A stretch of 64,000 nt of DNA. Source: an uncultured Algibacter sp. (GTDB taxonomy: Bacteria; Bacteroidota; Bacteroidia; Flavobacteriales; Flavobacteriaceae). The stretch lies in contig NZ_CANKXG010000005.1 of assembly GCF_947487575.1 (NCBI RefSeq), positions 62,001 through 126,000 of the forward strand, in the 5' to 3' direction. Shown here piece after piece: positions 37,642 to 48,009 of the stretch (position 1 is its first letter; each line of letters begins with the position of its first letter). The notes under the pieces were generated by a model. The model saw nothing but the letters and a program-made list of their open reading frames with translations. It was not told where the DNA came from and searched no databases. Position numbers and translations under genes: made by a program.

Positions 37642-37654
37642 GCGGAGAAAGAGG
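37642..37654. other. Attachment site, distal end (partial tRNA-Ser 3' end)
   Basis: GCGGAGAAAGAGG, 13 bp, repeats 47997-48009 in the same orientation. It equals the last bases of tRNA-Ser(TGA), the acceptor stem plus part of the T arm. This is the direct repeat left by tyrosine-recombinase insertion into a tRNA gene. Confidence 0.82.
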
Positions 37655-37713
37655 TTCTTCCTCAATATCTTTAAACTCAATGTTTACAGTACTTCACAAA
37701 GGTTCAGTTTTCT

Positions 37714-37734
37714 AGGGTAACCCATAGGGTAACT
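37714..37734. repeat. Element-end repeat GGGTAACCCATAGGGTAAC, left copy
   Basis: The 21-bp sequence AGGGTAACC-CATAGGGTAACT recurs exactly and in direct orientation at 47866-47886, near the other end of the element. A further half copy, AGTTACCCTAT, lies inverted at 47839-47849. Position and arrangement suggest integrase arm-binding sites. Confidence 0.8.
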
Positions 37735-37796
37735 TTACCAGTTTTACTAATAATACTCCGCAAGTTACATTTTAAATCCTTAAATCACAAAATTTC

Positions 37797-37863
37797 AGGG
37801 AATGCTAGGGAATCCCTAGCTATACCTTGATGAAACCCTAATATTTGCATCATAATAATTTAA
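37797..37863 (+). promoter_or_regulatory. Shared element operator-promoter, copy L (drives 37875 ORF)
   Basis: AGGGAAT-GCT-AGGGAATCCCT-AGCTAT is followed after 17 bp by ATATTTG and CATCATAATAATT. The copy ahead of the 45204 gene has the same order, the same spacing and an identical ATATTTGCATCATAATAATT. The operator replaces the usual -33 TTTG, so an activator-type or repressor-type regulator is likely. This also shows that the track start at 37845 falls inside the -7 box. Confidence 0.8.
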
Positions 37864-37874
37864 AAAATAATATT

Positions 37875-38078
37875 ATGATTGAAAATTTAGAAGAAATCAA
37901 CTTGGATTTAACTCCATTAACACGACAATTGTTAATTAATTACATTTCCATTAATTATGAAGAGCATGCGGATTTTAGCGAGGAATCTTTAAGAGCTGAA
38001 TTATTACTTTTAAAACGTACTAATAACCTAGAGCAACTTTTTCTAGCAGAATCTTTATCAAATTACTATCAGCAGTAA
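37875..38078 (+). CDS. Tiny unknown protein under the shared element operator
   Basis: 67 aa from ATG at 37875 (MIENLEEINLDLTPLTRQLL). The longer track start (TTG, 37845) is inside the promoter and is rejected. It is acidic and leucine-rich, all helix by appearance, with no signal or recognisable domain. It shares its operator and promoter with the integrase and the excisionase-like gene, so a role in element control or excision is a fair guess. Confidence 0.65.
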   Translation: MIENLEEINLDLTPLTRQLLINYISINYEEHADFSEESLRAELLLLKRTNNLEQLFLAESLSNYYQQ

Positions 38079-38119
38079 TTTAAAGCTGTTGAAATTTTGA
38101 GCATGACTAGTTGTAAAAT

Positions 38120-38166
38120 GAAAAACCTAACAGCAATTATATTGATTTATTTTTCTGTTAGGTTCT
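38120..38166 (-). terminator. Terminator of the short recombinase gene
   Basis: AACCTAACAG / CTGTTAGGTT 10-bp stem; on the minus strand it is followed by TTTTTCATTTT. It lies 27 bp past the stop of the 38193 gene. Confidence 0.8.
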
Positions 38167-38192
38167 CATTAATCATTAGATTGATTTTAGAC

Positions 38193-38756
38193 TTATAAAC
38201 TCATATAAATATCGTCTAATTCCTCTTGTCTAATACCTAAGTATCTTTTTGTAATAGCAGGTGAAGAGTGGTTAAACAAATCTGATAAGTATAATAGTGC
38301 TTTTTCAGTTTCGTTATTATTAGAGTACACTTGACGACCAAAAGTTTTACGAAGTGAATGTGTTGAAACTGAAAGTTTTTTAGTTCCAAAAAGTTCTTTG
38401 ATTTTACGATTTACATATTGTACGCTGTAAACTGTATTTTGGTTTGAAGTAAAAATAAAGCCTTCATGTTCTTCAACTCTAGTTTTTAGTAAAGCAAAAG
38501 CATCTTTAATATTATCGTTAATTCTGATAATACGTTTCTTATTGGTCTTTTTCTCTAGAAGTGTAATTGAATCATTTTCTAAATCTGTAAACTTTAATGA
38601 AAGTAAATCTGAAATACGTAAACCAGAATTAATACCTAAAACCACTAAAAAACCTAATTTATAGTTTTTATCATTTTTAATTAATTTGATTGCTTTGTTT
38701 AACGTAGAATCAAAATTTAAATAATCGCTTGTAGTAACTGAACCTTTAACACTCAT
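38193..38756 (-). CDS. Catalytic-domain-only tyrosine recombinase
   Basis: 187 aa against about 300 for XerD. It begins directly at the catalytic domain with no room for a core-binding SAM-like domain. The active-site set is complete: Arg in GLRISDLL (about 56), Lys in EKKTNKKR, His-x-x-Arg in HSLRKTFG, His in FNHSSPAI and Tyr in KRYLGI. Such short forms are known on Bacteroidota plasmids and islands, some linked to DNA inversion or resolution. Hairpins at 38794 and 38890 lie between it and res. Confidence 0.88.
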   Translation of the reverse strand: MSVKGSVTTSDYLNFDSTLNKAIKLIKNDKNYKLGFLVVLGINSGLRISDLLSLKFTDLENDSITLLEKKTNKKRIIRINDNIKDAFALLKTRVEEHEGFIFTSNQNTVYSVQYVNRKIKELFGTKKLSVSTHSLRKTFGRQVYSNNNETEKALLYLSDLFNHSSPAITKRYLGIRQEELDDIYMSL

Positions 38757-38793
38757 ATCATTATTATTTATGATACAAATATAATAAAAATAA

Positions 38794-38829
38794 GTTTCAC
38801 TTTTATTTGTTTTAAGATAAAAGTGAAAC
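38794..38829. repeat. Inverted repeat upstream of the short recombinase
   Basis: GTTTCACTTTTAT (38794-38806) and ATAAAAGTGAAAC (38817-38829) are perfect complements around 10 bp. It starts 38 bp ahead of the recombinase start. The same GTTTCACT / AGTGAAAC arms recur in the hairpin at 38890-38931. It could be a recombinase site or a second terminator for res. Confidence 0.75.
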
Positions 38830-38889
38830 TATATTAGTGTATGTTTTGCTTTGAAACACATAACTTGTTGTTTTACAATGTTTTAACAA

Positions 38890-38931
38890 AATAAAAAAGG
38901 TTCACTTCTAATAATAGTGAAACTTTTATAC
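38890..38931 (-). terminator. Terminator of the type III R-M operon
   Basis: On the minus strand GTTTCACT pairs with AGTGAAC around a 9-nt loop and is followed by CTTTTTTATTTTG, 20 bp past the res stop. Confidence 0.75.
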
Positions 38932-38950
38932 TCTGCTAACTATTGAAGTG

Positions 38951-41491
38951 TTATGATTCCACATCCAATGTTTCTTCCAACGTCTTTTTAAATTCGTTTT
39001 CACTCTCGTTGTTATAAAATGGTACACCTGTAATTAAGTATTTGTCAGAATTAAGGGTGATGGTGGTTTTACTCTCTCTAATTTCTTGTAAAAAGTCTTC
39101 CTTCCATTTGTCGTGAGCTTTAAGATGTTTCCCTTTTGGTTCTATAAAAATCTGATAGGTCAGTTCTTCTCCTGTTTTTTGTTTACAGAACAACACAAAG
39201 TCTGGCTCAAACGCTCGCCCTTGTTTATCAATGATTTTAATTTCTCTTTCATTACGTATTAAGTAAATGTCTTTAAACTGTTTTTCCAGATGCTCAAAAC
39301 GTCTAGCAAACATTTTTACAAATTCTTTCTCCTCACTTGTACCGTAGTTTGCATTATACACATACCAACTTGGCTCACTAACTACATCAAACTGACCATC
39401 GGCACGAGGGTTGTCCTTATAGGTTCTGATTTCCTTGTCTTTAAAAACCTTGTGTACGTAATCGTTTATGTATTCTGAACCTTCATAATCCGTTAGATTG
39501 GATTTAATCTCAATCTCAATGGTTTGTAGTAATTTCTGGATAGCAGAAAGGTAATCGTCATTTGTTATATACTCTAATCTGTTTTGTGTTCCAGAAAAAG
39601 CAATCTCTAAACCTGCTAAATATTCCTTACTTTCTATAAAATTTGTAATGGATTCTATTTTTGGAAAAAATCGTTCTAAACTGTCAAAATAGTAAAAGGG
39701 ATTCTGTGTTAAGGCATATTTTGTTATATGCTTTGGTATGTCTAAAACTCTTATGTCTTTAGCTATAATTTTATCTTTCTTAGCTTCTTTTTCTTCTTTT
39801 GCGAAAGCATCAGTTTTAACACCTATACCAGATGATAAAGTATATTGTATGTTTCGCTTTGAAACTCCTAAATCTGCAAAGGACTTTATATTATCGTAGC
39901 TTTTCTCTACTCGCTTGTTGTAGATAACCTTTCCAGTTTTGTAAAACTCCGTTTCTTTAAACTCTGGTTTTAGTGTTAGTCGAAGTTGCACCGAATTTTC
40001 ATCGTTCTCCATTGCGCCAGATTCCCTCAAAGCCTTCTTTATGTCATAGATGTATTTGCTTTCATCTTTCGTGTGGTAATACAATTCTTCCAAAACTTTG
40101 AAATCATTATCGAGTTGGTCGTCAAACTTTCGTTTGTACTTTTCTTGACCCTCTTCAAGCTTGAATGGATAATACCTTGCACCTCTACCTATTAATTGAG
40201 CTTCTGATAGTGTAGCTTTTGAAGTTTTTTTGTCAGAACCACCTGCATTTTGACCTTCGTACAACCTTACGATGTCAAACAGGTTTAATACATCCCATCC
40301 CTCGTTTAGCTTTTGGACTGCAAAAACTGCACGAATAGGATTGTTTATATCTTCTAATGTGTTTAATCTAATTTGATTCTGTTCTGCTTCTGCATCATTA
40401 TTAGCACTTAAACAATTTTCTTGTTTGAAATTTGACTTTATACGATTAGCAATTTCTGTATCTGTAAGATTATTTTCAGCAAAAAAGGTAAACGCATTTT
40501 GCACTACCTCAACAGTTGAAGTATCCCTTATATTTTCAACCATTTTGGGTGAAAAATTTTCTATCAACTTATGAAACTTCGCTTTGTTTTCTTTTGATTC
40601 TGCTATGGTACGTTTTGCCTTAAATAAAATTACAGGCTTTAGGTTTACACCTCTGGACGTAGCAAGCTCCTGTCTGTACAAATTGAGTATTAACGCTTGT
40701 ATAATACGTTCTTGCTCATCGTACATAGACCTAACAAGGTTAATTTCCTTCGAGTATTTATCTAACCTAAATTGTGCAAGGTCATATTTGTAAATTACTT
40801 TGTCTTGATACTTTTCTGCTATGGCTTGACTGTCATAATCTAGTGTAGCGGTAAACTCTAAAAGTATATTCTCGTAGTTTAACTCGTGGGTTTTCTTCAC
40901 CAAATCACCCCAAACATCAGCGTTATTATGGTGCGCTTCATCACCTAGTAGTACTAATTTACGGTCTTCAAAGTCTTCAAAACTTAAACCATTTTCTCTC
41001 ACGTTGAGCAATAGTCCAGATGTAAGCATTTGTATGGAAACAAATTTGATGTTGATGTTAACCTCATCTGCTTCATCAAAATTATCTACTTCCTTAACTA
41101 GTACCTCTTTACCATCAACCACAATTTTATCCTTGAATAAGTACTTAGATGCAAACGGATTTAAAAAGTTCTCCTTCGTTTTCTGGATAATGTTGTTACT
41201 GTTTACAAAAAACAAAAAGTTGCGATACCCTTTTTCATAAAGGAAGAGCATCAAACCTGCCATTACTAGAGTTTTACCGCTTCCAGTAGCCATATTGTAC
41301 ATTAAGTGATATGGTTTATCTGGTTTCTCTTCAAATTCTTCCTTGTCTAAATAGACGTAACGCTTGAAGGCTTCAACTTGGTAAGGTCTAACATCAAATT
41401 TTAAATTATCTGAAATAAAACTGGGTAAAGCAACCTGTTCTAATGCTTTGCGTGCAAAAGGGTTATCAAATATTTTATATAAGTACGCCAT
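38951..41491 (-). CDS. res: Type III restriction enzyme Res subunit
   Basis: 846 aa. Superfamily 2 helicase/translocase with Walker A MATGSGKT (about 68-75), DEAHH (about 184), and the SF2 motif VI QLIGRGARYYPF. The C-terminal endonuclease domain has the PD-ExK signature EPDFVLF … FIEPKGKH (about 780-805). Res cuts DNA some 25 bp from an unmodified site after collision of two complexes and needs Mod for recognition. It starts 2 bp after the mod stop, so translation is likely coupled. No frame damage is visible; the system appears functional. Confidence 0.94.
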   Translation of the reverse strand: MAYLYKIFDNPFARKALEQVALPSFISDNLKFDVRPYQVEAFKRYVYLDKEEFEEKPDKPYHLMYNMATGSGKTLVMAGLMLFLYEKGYRNFLFFVNSNNIIQKTKENFLNPFASKYLFKDKIVVDGKEVLVKEVDNFDEADEVNINIKFVSIQMLTSGLLLNVRENGLSFEDFEDRKLVLLGDEAHHNNADVWGDLVKKTHELNYENILLEFTATLDYDSQAIAEKYQDKVIYKYDLAQFRLDKYSKEINLVRSMYDEQERIIQALILNLYRQELATSRGVNLKPVILFKAKRTIAESKENKAKFHKLIENFSPKMVENIRDTSTVEVVQNAFTFFAENNLTDTEIANRIKSNFKQENCLSANNDAEAEQNQIRLNTLEDINNPIRAVFAVQKLNEGWDVLNLFDIVRLYEGQNAGGSDKKTSKATLSEAQLIGRGARYYPFKLEEGQEKYKRKFDDQLDNDFKVLEELYYHTKDESKYIYDIKKALRESGAMENDENSVQLRLTLKPEFKETEFYKTGKVIYNKRVEKSYDNIKSFADLGVSKRNIQYTLSSGIGVKTDAFAKEEKEAKKDKIIAKDIRVLDIPKHITKYALTQNPFYYFDSLERFFPKIESITNFIESKEYLAGLEIAFSGTQNRLEYITNDDYLSAIQKLLQTIEIEIKSNLTDYEGSEYINDYVHKVFKDKEIRTYKDNPRADGQFDVVSEPSWYVYNANYGTSEEKEFVKMFARRFEHLEKQFKDIYLIRNEREIKIIDKQGRAFEPDFVLFCKQKTGEELTYQIFIEPKGKHLKAHDKWKEDFLQEIRESKTTITLNSDKYLITGVPFYNNESENEFKKTLEETLDVES

Positions 41492-41493
41492 CC

Positions 41494-43509
41494 CTAAGCC
41501 TTGTTAATTTGGTAAAAATCCTGCGTTACTTTCTTGTCTTCATCTGTACATTTCATTTCTGCATCGTTGAGCGATGATACATTTACAAATAATTGGTTTT
41601 TGTCTAATATGCTAACTAGATGTTCTTTCTGTTCTTTCAGGTCTAGCTTCTTAAAATCCTCAATATGTGCATCCTGCTTCTTAATATCTACGTTGTAATT
41701 AAGGAAAGATTTTGCTTTCATTTGCTCCCAGATAGTCAATAGCTCTTTGGTGTCATTAGAATCTTTAATTTGGTCAACGAAGATTTGATTATATCTTCTA
41801 AGTTCGAGATATTTAAACGAACCTCCACCTTTCCAATTCACATCTTCCTCTTTAGAAATACCTGTGGTGTCGCCATTAATCACATTTTGTAATCTTTCTA
41901 ATGATAAATCTATTTGACTAGTCATTTGTTCACAACCGATGTATTGAAAACCAAGCTTATGAGCAGTAGCCATTGAGCTACCACTACCAATGTGGAAATC
42001 TAACAGAATATCTTCTGGATATATGTTACCTATTTCCATAATCTTTTTTAAAAATAATTCAGGTTTTTTTCCGTTTTTGAAAGTAACACCACCTTCACTG
42101 GCTACTAAGTTAAATTCCTTCTCAAAATCGTAGTAATTAGGGTATGGATTTCCTACATCCTCTTTTTGTGAAATTGGTTTGCCTTGATAATAAAACCCGT
42201 TACTTCCAGAAGTGTCAAAGGGTTGACGAATGTATCTGTAACCAAGTCCATCACCTCTCGTCCCCATACCTATAACTCTATATAACGCTCCTAAACCATC
42301 TTCTTCTTTTCTTTCTCTTAGATTTAATTCGTAATACTCCGATGCTGAACCTTTTTGAGTAATTAGAGACCCACGAATATTATACTCTTTCAAATCACCA
42401 TTGTCCTCATTAAGCAATTCATACTCATTAACATTATAAATTTCAACGTCATATTTCCCAATTTTTACAATTTTAGGTTTTGCATTTTCATTAATTTTTA
42501 CAGCAAATCTGTAGTGCCTTTCTGAATTATCTTCTACGAAAATTCTATTTGGTTTATAATTTGGCATACCATACGATAATAACTGCTCAATTACTTTTTG
42601 ATACCTTATATCTTTTCTTAGAATTCTATTTTCGTGTCGTACTTTAACGTGAAAAATATTTTCAAATCGTTCAATTCCAAATACTTCATCACAAACAGAT
42701 TTCAAATAAGTATATTCATTATCATCACAACTAATAAAAATCACACCATCTTTTTTCAATAATCGTTTAGCAATTTCGAGCCTATTTTTCATAAACGTTA
42801 ACCAAGTGGAGTGGTTGAAACTATCGTTATAAGTAAAACTATCATTTTCTGTATTATAAGGTGGGTCGATGTAGATAAGTTTTACTTTACCTGCAAACTC
42901 TTTTTTAAGTGAGTGCAACGCTAATAAGTTGTTTCCTTTGATAATCAAGTTATCTGTAATGGTATCTTCTGGTAAACCTCGTTTTTTGTTAATCTCTGCA
43001 TTTCTGGTAAACCCTGTAAAATTGTGTTCACCATCTTTGTCAAAAGTTTTTGCGTTAGTTAATACTTTTGGCTCTAATAGTTGTGTTATTTCATCCTGTG
43101 CTAGTATTTCGTTAAAGAAAATTTCTTCTCGTTTATCTTCCTCACGACTTTGACCACCTTCCAGAACGCAATCTTTAAAGGGCCATACTAGAGAAACCTC
43201 ATTACGTTGTTTTAAAAATTTACCGTCAATGTTTAAGCCTACTTTATTACGATACTGGGTGTAACTATCGTTGAGGTAATTTTTCTGTTCCAGAAACTGT
43301 ATAAACTTATTTTGGTTAAAAATAAGTGTATCCTTTACATTTAGAAAAAAGGTTTCTTTAAGCTCTGCATCTTCAAGTAGTAGGGAAATCAACTTTTCAT
43401 CAAAGTTTTGAGCTTTGTTGATGACTACCCATTTTTTCAGTTCACCTTCATCTGTGATATAATCGTTTTCCTGCTTTAGTTGGTCTTCTAGTTGTTGGTA
43501 TAGCTTCAT
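41494..43509 (-). CDS. mod: Type III DNA methyltransferase Mod subunit (N6-adenine)
   Basis: 671 aa. Beta-class order: motif IV DPPYNTEND (about 215) precedes motif I LDFHIGSGSS (about 505). The region between, about 300-480, is the target recognition domain and would set the site. Mod methylates one strand of an asymmetric site and carries specificity for Res. I find no simple sequence repeat inside the gene, so it does not look phase-variable like many pathogen mod genes. Its ATG directly follows the XRE stop (TAGATG). Confidence 0.94.
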   Translation of the reverse strand: MKLYQQLEDQLKQENDYITDEGELKKWVVINKAQNFDEKLISLLLEDAELKETFFLNVKDTLIFNQNKFIQFLEQKNYLNDSYTQYRNKVGLNIDGKFLKQRNEVSLVWPFKDCVLEGGQSREEDKREEIFFNEILAQDEITQLLEPKVLTNAKTFDKDGEHNFTGFTRNAEINKKRGLPEDTITDNLIIKGNNLLALHSLKKEFAGKVKLIYIDPPYNTENDSFTYNDSFNHSTWLTFMKNRLEIAKRLLKKDGVIFISCDDNEYTYLKSVCDEVFGIERFENIFHVKVRHENRILRKDIRYQKVIEQLLSYGMPNYKPNRIFVEDNSERHYRFAVKINENAKPKIVKIGKYDVEIYNVNEYELLNEDNGDLKEYNIRGSLITQKGSASEYYELNLRERKEEDGLGALYRVIGMGTRGDGLGYRYIRQPFDTSGSNGFYYQGKPISQKEDVGNPYPNYYDFEKEFNLVASEGGVTFKNGKKPELFLKKIMEIGNIYPEDILLDFHIGSGSSMATAHKLGFQYIGCEQMTSQIDLSLERLQNVINGDTTGISKEEDVNWKGGGSFKYLELRRYNQIFVDQIKDSNDTKELLTIWEQMKAKSFLNYNVDIKKQDAHIEDFKKLDLKEQKEHLVSILDKNQLFVNVSSLNDAEMKCTDEDKKVTQDFYQINKA

Positions 43510-43707
43510 CTATAATTTTGTTCTCTCTGTTAGTAGTTCCTGTATTTTTACATCTAAAATATCTGCAATCTTGTATAGGTCTTCTATACTAGGTTGACGT
43601 TTGTTACGTGCGTATTCGTTAATGGTGGTGTAGCTTTTATCCATTTGGTTTGCAAGCCATTTTTGACTTATACCTTTCTTTTTCAAATTTTCTTTAATCC
43701 TGTTCAT
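43510..43707 (-). CDS. XRE-family regulator of the R-M operon
   Basis: 65 aa, a single helix-turn-helix: ISQKWLANQMDKSYTTINEYARNKRQPSIEDLYKIADIL. It resembles the controller proteins that sit ahead of restriction-modification genes. Its stop codon abuts the mod ATG, so it heads the mod-res operon. A palindrome at 43759-43774 in its leader is a candidate operator for autoregulation. Confidence 0.88.
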   Translation of the reverse strand: MNRIKENLKKKGISQKWLANQMDKSYTTINEYARNKRQPSIEDLYKIADILDVKIQELLTERTKL

Positions 43708-43753
43708 TACAGTCTATTTGAATTTGCGACAGCAATGTAATAATGTTCATTGA

Positions 43754-43782
43754 AAAATAGCGACTTTTTTCGCTGTATTTTT
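43754..43782. promoter_or_regulatory. Candidate operator between the XRE gene and the divergent HTH gene
   Basis: AAAATAGCGA and TCGCTGTATTTT form an imperfect palindrome centred on CTTTTT in the only divergent promoter region of the element. It is a likely site for the XRE regulator, from position only. Confidence 0.5.
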
Positions 43783-43857
43783 TACTAAAACCTCATCATG
43801 GTATTTATTTAGTTGCTTTTTAATGCACCTGTATATTTATTAGTAAACAATTTTTTT

Positions 43858-44061
43858 ATGAGAACATATAAAACATATTATACTAGTGTTGAGGTGATGG
43901 AACTTTACCAAATATCAGAACGTACACTACGTTATAGATTAGCTCTACTAAAAAATAAATACAAAGGTCAGCCATCTTTACTATCTAAACAGAACAATGC
44001 ATGGCGAATCCATAACAGTATTTTAGAACACTTTGCACCGAAACGAAATAAACCAGATTGA
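43858..44061 (+). CDS. Small helix-turn-helix protein
   Basis: 67 aa from ATG at 43858 (MRTYKTYYTSVEVMELYQIS); the track's 15 extra residues are hydrophobic and unlikely. VEVMELYQISERTLRYRLALLKNK looks like a MerR/excisionase-type winged helix (DNA-binding). It is the only element gene besides the tiny ORF on the plus strand and is divergent from the R-M operon. Its role is unknown; an excision or R-M control factor is possible. Confidence 0.7.
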   Translation: MRTYKTYYTSVEVMELYQISERTLRYRLALLKNKYKGQPSLLSKQNNAWRIHNSILEHFAPKRNKPD

Positions 44062-44257
44062 AAAAGAACCTCAACACGCATCACCGCTCTTACATTAGCA
44101 TATTTAAAAAGCCTTATTGCACGCCCTTAGAGTGCTAAAAAATATTTGTATAGATTTTTCCGTACGGTTACAGAAGACCTGCAATTACATTTAAAATAGC
44201 CTAAATGATGGTAATATCAGCGTTTTTATAATTGACAGTTAGAGTGGCATTCAAATT
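44062..44257. other. Short gene-free spacer inside the element
   Basis: Convergent gap between two DNA-binding protein genes. I see no clear hairpin with a T-run. Confidence 0.4.
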
Positions 44258-44716
44258 TTAAAATAATTTTCCAAAATGTTTTTCTATATACGGTTTGGAT
44301 TTTACATATTCTACTATTACACCATCAGCCGTAAATGTGAATTTAGCCCACCTTAAAAAATCTTCCAAATCTTTGAAACTCTTTATATCAATATCAATTT
44401 CAATAAGTATTTCGATAGGAATATATTGGTGTAGATTGTTTACTAAAAGTAATCTTCGTTTTTTAGGTCTTCCGCCTTCTGGTGAAATTGGATAAAAATA
44501 TTCCTTGTAAAGAATTGGATTAAGGGCTGTTATAGCAGTTTGAATCCTTTTTTCACTGCATCCAAACTCATAACTTAAACTTTTATTAGTCATATAAAAA
44601 TAACGTCCTTGCAATTGGTAACTTATTATCTCTGACAAAATGAGCTTTTGAAGTTCGTTGAGGTTTTTATCTGCTTTTACTTTTTTATAAACTTTTGTAA
44701 ATTGATGTTCTGGCAT
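44258..44716 (-). CDS. Helix-turn-helix domain protein of unknown role
   Basis: 152 aa. Residues 18-70 (LNELQKLILSEIISYQLQGRYFYMTNKSLSYEFGCSEKRIQTAITAL) look like the winged-helix module found at the start of plasmid and island replication or control proteins. A basic KKRRLLLVNN follows, then a C-terminal 60 residues without match. No replication domain is present, so a regulator is more likely than an initiator. Confidence 0.65.
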   Translation of the reverse strand: MPEHQFTKVYKKVKADKNLNELQKLILSEIISYQLQGRYFYMTNKSLSYEFGCSEKRIQTAITALNPILYKEYFYPISPEGGRPKKRRLLLVNNLHQYIPIEILIEIDIDIKSFKDLEDFLRWAKFTFTADGVIVEYVKSKPYIEKHFGKLF

Positions 44717-44907
44717 TGTTTTTATTTATTGTTATGGCTAAAACAGTATGTTTCAAATTTGTTTATTACAAGTTGAAGTATTCTAAAATAGCCCTGTATT
44801 ATATTATATATTATTAGACTAAACTTATTATTAAACTAAAAAAAGAGTATTAATAGGTTTCCTCTTCGAGGTGTTTCAATTTTAATTTTTAAAAATGCTA
44901 ATCTCAA
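44717..44907. other. Gene-free spacer inside the element
   Basis: AT-rich gap between 44716 and the excisionase-like gene end. No ORF or strong hairpin seen. Confidence 0.4.
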
Positions 44908-45204
44908 CTAGAAGGATTGAAGGTTTTTAGATAAAATTTTATCTATTTCCCTAACGGGGTATAAATAAACATCTCCAATTGTAGTAAATGGAATGTCACC
45001 ATTATTTCTATATTTAATAATAGTATTTTGAGATATACCAAACAGTAACTTCAAATCTTTGTTACGGTAGTACTTTTTAACTTGTTTAGAGCTTGTTTTA
45101 TCAAGTTTTGTTTCAAGTTGAGCTAACTTGTCATGTAATGGAAGTAAAAGCCTTTTAAGCTCTCCAAATGGAATAATTGAAATCTGTGATTCTTGTTTCA
45201 TCAT
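44908..45204 (-). CDS. Excisionase-like helix-turn-helix protein
   Basis: 98 aa. The C-terminal half, KYYRNKDLKLLFGISQNTIIKYRNNGDIPFTTIGDVYLYPVREID, is a MerR/Xis-type winged helix as in element excisionases of Bacteroidota. The N-terminal half is helical. A two-codon start (ATGATG) follows the shared operator-promoter at 45220-45285. Co-control with the integrase fits a recombination directionality factor. Confidence 0.78.
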   Translation of the reverse strand: MMKQESQISIIPFGELKRLLLPLHDKLAQLETKLDKTSSKQVKKYYRNKDLKLLFGISQNTIIKYRNNGDIPFTTIGDVYLYPVREIDKILSKNLQSF

Positions 45205-45219
45205 AATTATATTTTTTAG

Positions 45220-45283
45220 AATTATTATGATGCAAATATTCGGGTTTATATCAACAATAGCGAGGGATTCCCTTTGATTCCCT
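45220..45283 (-). promoter_or_regulatory. Shared element operator-promoter, copy M (drives excisionase-like gene)
   Basis: On the minus strand AGGGAAT-CAA-AGGGAATCCCT-CGCTAT, 17 bp, ATATTTG, CATCATAATAATT. The distance from operator to -7 is 17 bp, as in copy L. The sequence from ATATTTG through ATAATAATT is identical to copy L, although the genes behind them are unrelated. Confidence 0.82.
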
Positions 45284-45303
45284 CAAAGATTAACATAATG
45301 GAT

Positions 45304-46476
45304 TTACATTGATTCATAGATTTTTTTTCTTCTATCGGAAAATTTTGAAATGATGAGGTCTAATAGTTCAATTTCTTGACGTTCATATTCGCTTTTTTCG
45401 TCATTTTTTCTTTTTTTAACTTTTGAAAATTCTTTATTGATTCCTTTAACTTTAACAGATTCCCCTTTTTCGTTTAGGAAGTGGATGTTTGCATTATCTA
45501 AATACTTTTTTAGGTTGGTATCTGTATATTTTTGGTTCTTACTATCTACATCAATAAAACCTTCTTCAAATAATGCTTTATAAAAGAATACAACATTTAG
45601 TTTGTTCGTTTTAAATTCTAATTTTAGATTTGTTGGGTCTTTGTCAAAGACCTCATCAAAATTAAATTCATCTTCTTTATAGGTCTCTAGTTTTTTAATT
45701 AGATTGAGTATATTATCTAGATGTTTGATTATATTTTTTAACACAGTTTTAGTGCTATCTAGGCATATAGAAAGCTGAACATAAGAATGCATTTTTTCTA
45801 ATTCTTCATTCTTGTTTATTTTATTAACGGGGTAATTATAAGAAAGTTCTTCTTCGATTACATCTTTTTCAATATCACCTTCTTTTTCGAGGAATTTTCT
45901 AGTGGCTTCTTTTGCTTCATGCTTCTTTTTTTCATTTTCCTCATTTTCAATCTCAATTCTTTCAAGTATTAATTCTTCTAAATTACCTTTTTCATCATCC
46001 AATGTTTCATCTGGGTCGGTCAATGGTAAAAAGTCTTTGCTATAAAATATTCGACCTAACTTATAAATGAAATGTTCATATTCTTCATAAGTAATGAAAT
46101 AACTGCTATCAAAATCATCTGAAAAGTCTTTGCATTTATTTTTAGGAGATTTGATTGACTCTGGAGTACGGTATATGTTTGAAAAAAGCGATTTAAGGTA
46201 TTCTAAATTTTCATTGTCAAATTCAATAATGTTATTATACTTCTGTAAAACATCTTGATGGAATACTTTAATAAACTTAACTTTAATTGGGCTGTCTAAA
46301 TCGGCAATATGATTGATTTTATCTTTAATTCTATTTTCCCAATTATTAAAATACTCATCATCAATCTCAACCACCCATGTTTTAAAAAATGAAAAAGTTT
46401 GATAGTCCTCATGAAAGTAAATTTCAGGATTAACTATCTTTTCTATCTCTTTGTTAAGGTCAATAAGGTATTTCAT
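45304..46476 (-). CDS. Unknown 390-aa element protein, possibly RteC-like
   Basis: 390 aa, cytosolic, very rich in Lys, Glu and Asp, with a long helical centre (about 150-280). The C-terminal part (FKTNKLNVVFFYKALFEEGFIDVDS … YLDNANIHF) has the look of the C-terminal domain of RteC-type proteins, which control excision of Bacteroides conjugative transposons. I am not certain of this. It lies between the integrase and the excisionase-like gene on the same strand, so it may be the element's regulator. Confidence 0.65.
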   Translation of the reverse strand: MKYLIDLNKEIEKIVNPEIYFHEDYQTFSFFKTWVVEIDDEYFNNWENRIKDKINHIADLDSPIKVKFIKVFHQDVLQKYNNIIEFDNENLEYLKSLFSNIYRTPESIKSPKNKCKDFSDDFDSSYFITYEEYEHFIYKLGRIFYSKDFLPLTDPDETLDDEKGNLEELILERIEIENEENEKKKHEAKEATRKFLEKEGDIEKDVIEEELSYNYPVNKINKNEELEKMHSYVQLSICLDSTKTVLKNIIKHLDNILNLIKKLETYKEDEFNFDEVFDKDPTNLKLEFKTNKLNVVFFYKALFEEGFIDVDSKNQKYTDTNLKKYLDNANIHFLNEKGESVKVKGINKEFSKVKKRKNDEKSEYERQEIELLDLIISKFSDRRKKIYESM

Positions 46477-46489
46477 AAAATTTTATATA

Positions 46490-46518
46490 AAGAAGCTTAC
46501 AATATTGTAGGCTTCTAA
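46490..46518 (-). terminator. Hairpin after the integrase gene
   Basis: AGAAGC-TTAC and GTAG-GCTTCT form an imperfect stem around AATATT, followed on the minus strand by TTTATATAAAATTTT. It lies 19 bp past the integrase stop and would separate it from the 45304 gene. Confidence 0.65.
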
Positions 46519-46536
46519 ATTAAGAAAAATATAAAT

Positions 46537-47757
46537 TTATACGAATTTTTGTATTAGTTTATCCATATCCTTTTTAACGCTTGAATCCAGAACTTTAGCA
46601 TAGTGTTGGGTCATGGTTATTCTTGTATGCCCCATCATGCTTGAAACATTTTCAATAGCTATTCCATTAGCAAGCGTTACAGTAGTAGCAAACGTATGTC
46701 TAGCAACATAATGCGTGAGTTTTTTGTCTATTTTGCACAAATCAGCAATTTCTTTTAAATATTCGTTTATTTTTTGATTACTAATATTAGGTAGTAATTT
46801 ATCACCTTCCAAATGTGCGTATTTATCAATTATGCGTTTAACTGGTGGTAATACTGGAACATTACTTTTAATAGTTGTTTTTGCTCGATTAGTTTTAATC
46901 CAATAGGTGTTATCATTATCTCTAATTACATTAGCTTTAGTAAGGTTTTCAACGTCAATGGGTGCATAACTTGTATAGCATGAGAAAAGAAAAATATCTT
47001 TTACTCTGTTTAGTCTTTCGGTGCTAAATACTTTTTTTTCTATGCGTTGAAGTTCGTCCTGCGTAAGAAAAACAGCTTCTTTAATTATTAGCTTTTCGTC
47101 GTAACATAAAAATGGATTTTTAGAAATTATATTTCTTTTAATACCATAGTTACAAACTGTTTTAAAGCATTGAAAGTATTTTACAACAGAATTATGGTTT
47201 ATACCAACTTTACTTTTAAAAGTAGATTCATACTTTAAAAAAGATTCTAATTCATAGATAAATGTATTGTCAATATCCACTACATTATAAGTTGTTTTCC
47301 TGTGTTTTAAGCTAATAAAATTATATAGTAAATCTTTTGCTCGATTATACTTTTGAAGTGAAGCTTTAGAGCGTTCTCCTGCTTCAAATTTTCTTTTAAA
47401 ATAGTTATTGTGGTTCTCAAATAATTTGATAATATCAATTTCGGTAGATTTTGATTTTTTACCGCTAAGTACATTTTTTATATCACTTAGTTTAACGTTA
47501 GAATTGACTTTTACTAATTCCAGATAGATACTTTCAATTTTAGATTCAATAATATTTAAAGTTGTTCTACAATTTTTTTCACTTGTAACACGTAATGTGT
47601 TTTTTAGTTTATTTGTGGCATCCCAACGGTCTTTGGTGATAAATTTACCAGTACTTAATGTTGAGGTTTTACCTTGTAATTCAATTTTTGCATAAATAGG
47701 GGATTCTCCGTTACTGTTTTGCTTGTCTGTTTTAATGTAGAAATAAGTTTTAATCAT
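46537..47757 (-). CDS. int: Site-specific integrase of the element (tyrosine recombinase)
   Basis: 406 aa. An N-terminal arm-type DNA-binding domain (1-90), a SAM-like core-binding domain (100-205) and the catalytic domain. His-x-x-Arg is in THYVARHTFATT, the later His in MMGHTRITMTQHY, and the nucleophile is that final Tyr. The first catalytic Arg box reads FSCYTSYAPIDVENL, with no Arg, as is frequent in Bacteroidota integrases. It lies next to tRNA-Ser(TGA) and should insert the element there. The upstream operator-promoter is copy R. Confidence 0.93.
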   Translation of the reverse strand: MIKTYFYIKTDKQNSNGESPIYAKIELQGKTSTLSTGKFITKDRWDATNKLKNTLRVTSEKNCRTTLNIIESKIESIYLELVKVNSNVKLSDIKNVLSGKKSKSTEIDIIKLFENHNNYFKRKFEAGERSKASLQKYNRAKDLLYNFISLKHRKTTYNVVDIDNTFIYELESFLKYESTFKSKVGINHNSVVKYFQCFKTVCNYGIKRNIISKNPFLCYDEKLIIKEAVFLTQDELQRIEKKVFSTERLNRVKDIFLFSCYTSYAPIDVENLTKANVIRDNDNTYWIKTNRAKTTIKSNVPVLPPVKRIIDKYAHLEGDKLLPNISNQKINEYLKEIADLCKIDKKLTHYVARHTFATTVTLANGIAIENVSSMMGHTRITMTQHYAKVLDSSVKKDMDKLIQKFV

Positions 47758-47780
47758 TGGTTTACTAATTTAATGTTCAA

Positions 47781-47831
47781 CAAAAATATTAGCAAACTGC
47801 AAGTATAGCTAGGGATTCCCTGTGATTCCCT
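47781..47831 (-). promoter_or_regulatory. Shared element operator-promoter, copy R (drives integrase)
   Basis: On the minus strand AGGGAAT-CAC-AGGGAATCCCT-AGCTAT, 15 bp, ATATTTTTG. The last G of the -7 box lies at the same distance from the operator as in copies L and M. The 18 bp AGGGAATCCCTAGCTATA are identical to copy L but lie in opposite orientation at the other end of the element. Confidence 0.82.
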
Positions 47832-47865
47832 TAAAATTAGTTACCCTATATGTTTTTCATTTTGC

Positions 47866-47886
47866 AGGGTAACCCATAGGGTAACT
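47866..47886. repeat. Element-end repeat GGGTAACCCATAGGGTAAC, right copy
   Basis: Exact direct repeat of 37714-37734, lying between the integrase promoter and the tRNA. An inverted half copy (AGTTACCCTAT) lies at 47839-47849. Confidence 0.8.
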
Positions 47887-47924
47887 GTACTTTGATATAT
47901 AATGTGTATTTTGAATATATACCA

Positions 47925-47966
47925 AAAACAAAAAACCCTCTAAACGTAGTGTTTAAAGGGTTTTGA
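47925..47966 (-). terminator. Terminator of tRNA-Ser(TGA), carried by the element
   Basis: AAAACCCT / AGGGTTTT with inner AAAC / GTTT; on the minus strand it is followed by TTTTTTGTTTTTGG. It replaces the displaced original terminator at 37601. Confidence 0.8.
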
Positions 47967-47996
47967 CTTTTAAAGTGTCTTTTGACGACTTAATCA

Positions 47997-48009
47997 GCGG
48001 AGAAAGAGG
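47997..48009. other. Attachment site, tRNA-proximal end
   Basis: GCGGAGAAAGAGG inside the tRNA-Ser(TGA) 3' end; the element carries these bases so the tRNA stays intact after insertion. Direct repeat of 37642-37654. Confidence 0.82.

Follow-up and report, generated by a model that had tools for sequence, protein, structure and literature searches.

Three promoters of a small genomic island in an uncultured Algibacter sp. carry the same 21-bp sequence, AGGGAATN3AGGGAATCCCT, at one fixed place. The island lies at the 3' end of a tRNA-Ser(TGA) gene within the window, i.e. the 64,000-nucleotide stretch of contig NZ_CANKXG010000005.1 that was analysed here. The sequence is the predicted binding site (operator) of a regulator encoded by the island itself. 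The promoters concerned are those of the tyrosine integrase gene, which is followed by the gene of a 390-amino acid (aa) RteC-like protein, of the gene of a small winged-helix HTH_17 protein, and of a gene that faces inward from the island's other end. The best overall model, to which a probability of about 0.5 is assigned, is that the RteC-like protein activates all three. An earlier note on this DNA, made from its letters alone, had proposed an element-specific regulon of three promoters. This proposal is strongly supported, and the regulon proves to be a trait of an island family and not a quirk of one island.

The regulator, seated where the -33 box would be, would contact RNA polymerase and most likely activates the three promoters. 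Class II activators occupy such a position and contact RNA polymerase, and activation from there is favoured because the distance and the orientation of the operator are fixed and the -33 box is missing in three unlike promoters. Integrase, excision factor and end-gene would thereby be switched on together, and the RteC-like protein would raise its own expression via the integrase promoter, presumably by readthrough from the integrase gene. The defence cargo would stay outside the switch. The shared operator, with the recurrence of its layout in about a dozen related islands, suggests that the island times its own departure through one regulator.

Operator copies and promoter geometry

The three operator copies, at the left-end promoter (copy L), the HTH_17 promoter (copy M) and the integrase promoter (copy R), were each re-found with 0 mismatches at the coordinates of the earlier note. 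The chance expectation of the motif in the window is 0.04, and 0 of 100 shuffles reached three copies. A search of the 3.5 Mb host genome at up to 3 mismatches returned the three island copies only, and the motif is absent from nine congeneric genomes at up to 1 mismatch. A search of 301 genomes of the family for the exact motif at 2 mismatches gave mostly scattered chance matches beside true islands. A motif common outside such elements would, according to the earlier note, refute its proposal. The outcome did not do so: the motif is unique to the island in the host genome, and the exact or near-exact copies in relatives stand at the same gene positions.

The internal architecture was also described correctly. 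The two AGGGA half-sites are 10 bp apart, the second half forms a palindrome (AGGGAATCCCT, 11 bp around one central base), and in all three promoters, 24 bp separate the end of GCTAT from the G of the -7 box. The sharing of ATATTTGCATCATAATAATT by copies L and M, which precede the 67-aa open reading frame (ORF) and the HTH_17 gene, is real. A correction applies to the -7 boxes: the integrase promoter has TATTTTTG, and the box of the left-end and HTH_17 promoters, AATATTTG, fits TAnnTTTG only partly, with its TTTG intact.

For a comparison across the family, 34 promoters from 14 islands, one of them a decayed remnant, were aligned on the first base of the operator (13 integrase, 12 HTH_17 and 9 far-end promoters). 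TTTG or TTTA ends at offset 51 from the operator start in 33 of them, and the exceptional promoter has TTTCG at the same place. Elsewhere in the 110-bp promoter stretches, TTTG occurs only twice. The orientation of the operator is identical in all 34 promoters, and none has TTG at the -33 position, in line with the earlier suggestion that the operator replaces the -33 box. If the flavobacterial -7 box is placed at -12 to -5 (PMC9723704), the operator extends from about -55 to about -35, and the centre of its palindromic half falls near -40. Since several islands share ancestry, these are not 34 independent events; the independent part of the evidence is the common geometry of three non-homologous promoter contexts.

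Operator columns 3-7 and 12-15 were invariant in the 27 promoters of a first tally, and the right-hand palindrome arm TCCCT is conserved to the same degree as the repeats. Operators of the same island share 81-100% identity, whereas the 20-bp spacer between operator and -7 box and the leader mostly reach 24-55%, which is near background. An exception is the leader shared by the HTH_17 and left-end promoters of the window, with 76% identity over 29 bp. Judged by this difference in conservation, the operator itself is under selection.

Related islands were collected with an integrase-alignment scan, which gave 11 loci. In eight of these, an island carries an integrase that is either full-length or frameshifted; the others are one remnant (Yeosuana) and two distant integrases. 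Family-wide searches added further islands. Islands with the same operator come from at least eight other flavobacterial genera and three IMG/VR contigs. The operator precedes both the integrase and the HTH_17 gene in Leeuwenhoekiella, Lutibacter (2), Flavobacterium, Algibacter, Altibacter, Gaetbulibacter, Winogradskyella and the genus of G338, and the decayed integrase remnant of Yeosuana retains a degenerate site. In these relatives, its distance to the start of the gene is about 74 bp for the integrase and about 75-82 bp for HTH_17. Where a tRNA gene was found directly beside the integrase, it is tRNA-Ser(TGA). A third, inverted copy lies 14-24 kb away at the far end in four islands (G338, G766, G770 and G772; these are the islands of G338, two Lutibacter and Winogradskyella), and the Flavobacterium island has its inverted third copy on another contig. 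Together with three IMG/VR islands, at least eight other islands have such a copy, which drives an inward-facing gene. Among the 13 IMG/VR matches to the DNA pattern, six have neither a match to any island protein nor a promoter context.

The candidate regulator and its rivals

The earlier note had named the 390-aa protein, the XRE protein or another helix-turn-helix (HTH) protein of the element as possible regulators. Only three proteins are common to all intact islands, namely the integrase, the member of the 390-aa protein family and the HTH_17 protein; XRE, HTH67 and HTH36 are present in few. The XRE protein was rejected because its gene has no operator upstream and because it is absent from most operator-bearing islands. 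Both findings also set the system apart from the regulon of a restriction-modification (R-M) controller (C) protein. The 67-aa, HTH67 and HTH36 proteins were rejected since they are not universal among the islands, and the integrase is an unlikely regulator because its arm sites are separate. The 390-aa protein of the earlier proposal therefore remains a candidate, beside the HTH_17 protein.

Several observations favour the 390-aa protein. The C-terminal 88 columns of its family align with the C-terminal domain of RteC (hhalign 71%, P 4e-5, score 35), and reversed, shuffled and unrelated controls scored at most 22. This was significant only with deeper alignments; shallow alignments were not significant. 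At canonical loci of this genus, an HTH_17 gene and then a third gene come after rteC, which is the order in the window island. Together with the control of excision and transfer genes of CTnDOT by RteC (PMC1976400), the domain and the gene order speak for the RteC-like protein. The host itself has a canonical rteC-HTH_17 pair elsewhere (L118 1327-2712; host genome C6:150631 on). A dyad, ACC..GGT (ACCGTAGTACGGT in L121), precedes the TTTG of the canonical HTH_17 promoter by about 40 bp and could be the RteC site of this promoter.

Further support comes from islands whose operators have diverged. The recognition helix of the HTH_17 protein (NTIIKYR..G) is nearly invariant among islands with different operators. 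The related Algibacter island is the sole one in which operator column 15 changes (A to G, in both copies); its HTH_17 protein is 87% identical to that of the window, whereas the RteC-like C-domain is only about 20% identical. Both cases favour the RteC-like protein as the reader of the operator. The distant island L098 lacks the AGGGAAT site. Its integrase and HTH_17 promoters lie on opposite strands at a distance of 12 kb and have a different sequence in common (AAAAGTNNACTTAAAGAGACTTTTCAA), of which a 19-bp block is identical in both and stands equally far from TTTG. The two promoters match at 24 of 26 positions, compared with at most 20 of 26 in shuffles, which indicates that the promoters of an island change together. 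Since the arm sites of L098 remain GGGTAAC-like, its regulator would read something other than the arm sites. The island L078 (operator class B) was not used as evidence, because the upstream match of its integrase and HTH_17 genes (19 of 26) is no better than shuffles; that the two start codons are about equally far away (81 and 82 bp) is only suggestive.

A number of findings weigh against the RteC-like protein. Neither the 390-aa protein nor the other 10 members of its family match the Pfam RteC model (PF09357) or any other Pfam model, and fold searches of this protein and RteC against solved structures gave no match. The proposed link to RteC is remote, and the hhalign result hangs on one comparison. 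Between islands whose operators are almost identical, the identity of the RteC-like C-domains can be as low as about 20%. Direct repeats one turn apart would fit winged-helix proteins bound head to tail better than a textbook dimer. In Flavobacterium relatives, GAATTCCCYGGGAATTCCC was found before the integrase only; in four of them, the genes of the RteC-like and HTH_17 proteins stand apart as a convergent pair, and the operator-like site is at the integrase only. Three other relatives have the site before the integrase and no RteC-like/HTH_17 pair nearby. On balance of this sequence evidence, there is an even chance that the 390-aa RteC-like protein is the regulator.

Alternatively, the HTH_17 protein could be both regulator and excision factor, with two molecules bound head to tail on the two 10-bp repeats and controlling the integrase gene, its own gene and the far-end gene. 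This would explain direct repeats one helical turn apart, the protein occurs in all intact islands with the operator at its own gene, and there are precedents in RdfS, an excision factor acting on the int promoter and its own, in BldC (PMC11963761) and in TorI (PMC2951348). However, the same recognition helix serves islands with differing operators, the conserved arm TCCCT is as strongly kept as the repeats, and RdfS-type proteins read degenerate sites, which contrasts with the invariant operator columns. This alternative is thus possible, but doubtful. It is rather unlikely that either of the two proteins acts as a repressor which covers the -33 region and silences the three genes until it is inactivated. 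The operator does overlap this region, integrated islands are usually quiet, and negative control is common for tRNA-associated integrases (PMC2951348). Nevertheless, in three unlike promoters a repressor site would not have to keep one distance and orientation to the -7 box, and the -33 box, which is missing from all 34, would normally be retained under repression.

Two further explanations do without a common regulator. The repeats could be arm-type or accessory attachment (att) sites of the integrase, as no more than about 170 bp separate two of the three copies from the att cores. This is very improbable and was rejected, since the third copy is 2.5 kb inside the island, distinct GGGTAAC sites occur at the ends only and vary independently of the operator in relatives, and the distance from the left copy to the core varies (153 vs 198 bp) at a constant distance to the -7 box. 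Recent promoter duplication within this island, with no shared control, could account for the leader shared by the HTH_17 and left-end promoters. It is the least credible explanation, because the three promoters of other islands are mostly alike in the operator only and the layout persists across genera. A duplication of the third copy in the window alone was rejected, as the far-end copy is present in relatives.

The proposed switch resembles several known systems only in part. The RteC site is an inverted repeat upstream of the -33 position. CTnDOT is similar in that an element-encoded regulator controls excision and transfer genes in Bacteroidota, with a remotely similar C-terminal domain, and in that rteC stands just before an HTH_17 gene in related genomes of the genus. 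It differs in that the protein of the window falls outside Pfam RteC, has an unlike N-terminal half and follows the integrase. Furthermore, the switch of the window also covers the integrase and the far-end gene, and the island has no tetQ-rteA-rteB cascade. RdfS of ICEMlSym-R7A, of which one molecule binds to each 10 bp, is an activator of intS and has been proposed to restrict its own expression (PMC11963761). Its likeness lies in the 10-bp periodicity and in one small winged-helix regulator that acts both on its own promoter and on the int promoter next to att. However, RdfS sites have no consensus motif, in contrast to the strict 21-bp motif, the fixed -7 spacing and the third promoter at the other end found here. 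TorI represses intS of the prophage KplE1 (PMC2951348), where a tRNA-adjacent integrase with a promoter overlapping the att region is likewise under element control. There, the sites are the recombination sites of integrase and TorI and control is negative, whereas here arm sites and operators are separate. BldC of Streptomyces binds 9-bp direct repeats (PMC11963761) and, with its 22-bp target and winged-helix fold, resembles the situation here. It is a global developmental regulator, not a mobile-element switch, and is related to the protein of the window by fold class only.

The island, its genes and its relatives

The island comprises the 67-aa ORF, a short tyrosine recombinase, the type III restriction (Res) and modification (Mod) genes, the XRE gene, two small HTH proteins, the HTH_17 protein, the 390-aa protein and the integrase. 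Its features are listed in the table below. The tyrosine integrase beside the 3' end of the tRNA gene and the direct-repeat att sites identify it as a tRNA-associated island, and its left terminus, GCGGAGAAAGAGGTTCTTCC, is common to the Flavobacterium island (L131). Joined flanks were searched in 10 congeneric genomes, and no clean empty site was found. In the congener G267, the two flanks of the same tRNA-Ser site are about 21 kb apart (C4:409657-431399); this points to a hotspot that serves other islands too. GGGTAAC sites (AGGGTAAC) occur five times in the window, all within the two island ends, and are probable integrase arm sites. The HTH_17 protein is a putative excision factor, as a small winged-helix protein encoded near the integrase with matches to PHROG excisionase profiles (8e-5 and 5e-4).

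Table. Features of the island in coordinates of the window
Feature	Position	Strand	Basis or context
Genomic island, about 10.36 kb, at 3' end of tRNA-Ser(TGA)	37642..47996	.	13-bp direct repeat, tRNA-Ser
attL core, 13-bp repeat GCGGAGAAAGAGG	37642..37654	+	exact direct repeat, expected 0
Probable integrase arm-type sites, left end (AGGGTAACCCATAGGGTAAC)	37714..37733	+	kept in relatives
Operator copy L (AGGGAATGCTAGGGAATCCCT)	37797..37817	+	left-end promoter
-7 box of left-end promoter (AATATTTG)	37840..37847	+	fixed offset from operator (34 promoters)
67-aa ORF, function unassigned, under copy L	37875..38078	+	
Type III restriction (Res) and modification (Mod) cargo	38951..43509	-	PADLOC REase_III 2e-133, MTase_III 4e-166
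65-aa XRE protein, control-protein-like, of R-M cargo	43510..43707	-	
152-aa HTH_36 protein, downstream of HTH_17 gene	44258..44716	-	
98-aa winged-helix HTH_17 protein, excisionase-like, in all intact islands	44908..45204	-	Pfam HTH_17 1.3e-7
-7 box of HTH_17 promoter (AATATTTG)	45233..45240	-	promoter alignment
Operator copy M (AGGGAATCAAAGGGAATCCCT)	45263..45283	-	HTH_17 promoter
390-aa protein, remote RteC-like C-terminal domain, downstream of integrase	45304..46476	-	
Tyrosine integrase, 406 aa, arm-binding and SAM-like domains	46537..47757	-	Pfam
-7 box of integrase promoter (TATTTTTG)	47781..47788	-	promoter alignment
Operator copy R (AGGGAATCACAGGGAATCCCT)	47811..47831	-	integrase promoter
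Probable integrase arm-type sites, right end, three AGGGTAAC, mixed orientation	47840..47885	.	
attR core, 13-bp repeat GCGGAGAAAGAGG, inside tRNA-Ser	47997..48009	+	exact direct repeat

The cargo varies among the islands and includes type III and type I R-M, a Snf2 helicase with methylase and a reverse transcriptase; except where PADLOC is cited, the Snf2/methylase and reverse transcriptase groups were named by eye from the sequence. The IMG/VR contigs L146/L178, L147/L181, L179/L184 and L149 are islands of this family filed as viral. The parts that were read contain an integrase, R-M and other defence genes; no phage structural genes were seen, and no systematic search for them was made. The integrases of Gaetbulibacter (L093 10001-11216) and Winogradskyella (L094 10001-11217) are split by frameshifts at residues about 270 and 255, respectively, and their operators are intact.

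At the far end of most islands, a conserved pair of a 104-aa protein and a 239-aa serine recombinase is encoded (L127 3022-4055, L129 2554-3587, L181 9051-10090, L178). The window island has a 187-aa tyrosine recombinase in place of this pair, and a remnant of such a 187-aa recombinase lies beside the pair in L179. The 67-aa protein of the window has a 65% identical homologue under the far-end operator of that same IMG/VR island. Other far-end operators precede genes of a conserved 94-aa family and of a 182-196-aa family (L129 4189-4473, L130, L178, L181 10359-10643; L127 2397-2945). Neither family has a Pfam or PHROG match, and the 94-aa family has no PADLOC match either. These far-end proteins may act when the island moves.

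Meaning for defence islands of Bacteroidota

To our knowledge, how small defence-carrying islands of Bacteroidota choose between leaving and staying is largely not known. The results describe a precise switch common to about a dozen islands with different R-M and other defence cargo. Tentatively, they can be generalized to a family of RteC-like activators outside known RteC which, from a 21-bp site replacing the -33 box, would fire the integrase, the excision factor and an inward-facing far-end gene at once across islands of Flavobacteriaceae. The operator would change with its regulator, keeping the switch private to each island, and the defence cargo would be freely exchanged. With this motif, further islands of the kind can be found, some of which are now filed as viruses, and genes can be picked out that are switched on when an island moves, including small genes near its ends. 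The suggested wider family of RteC-like activators may also offer a route to study activator-dependent promoters in flavobacteria.

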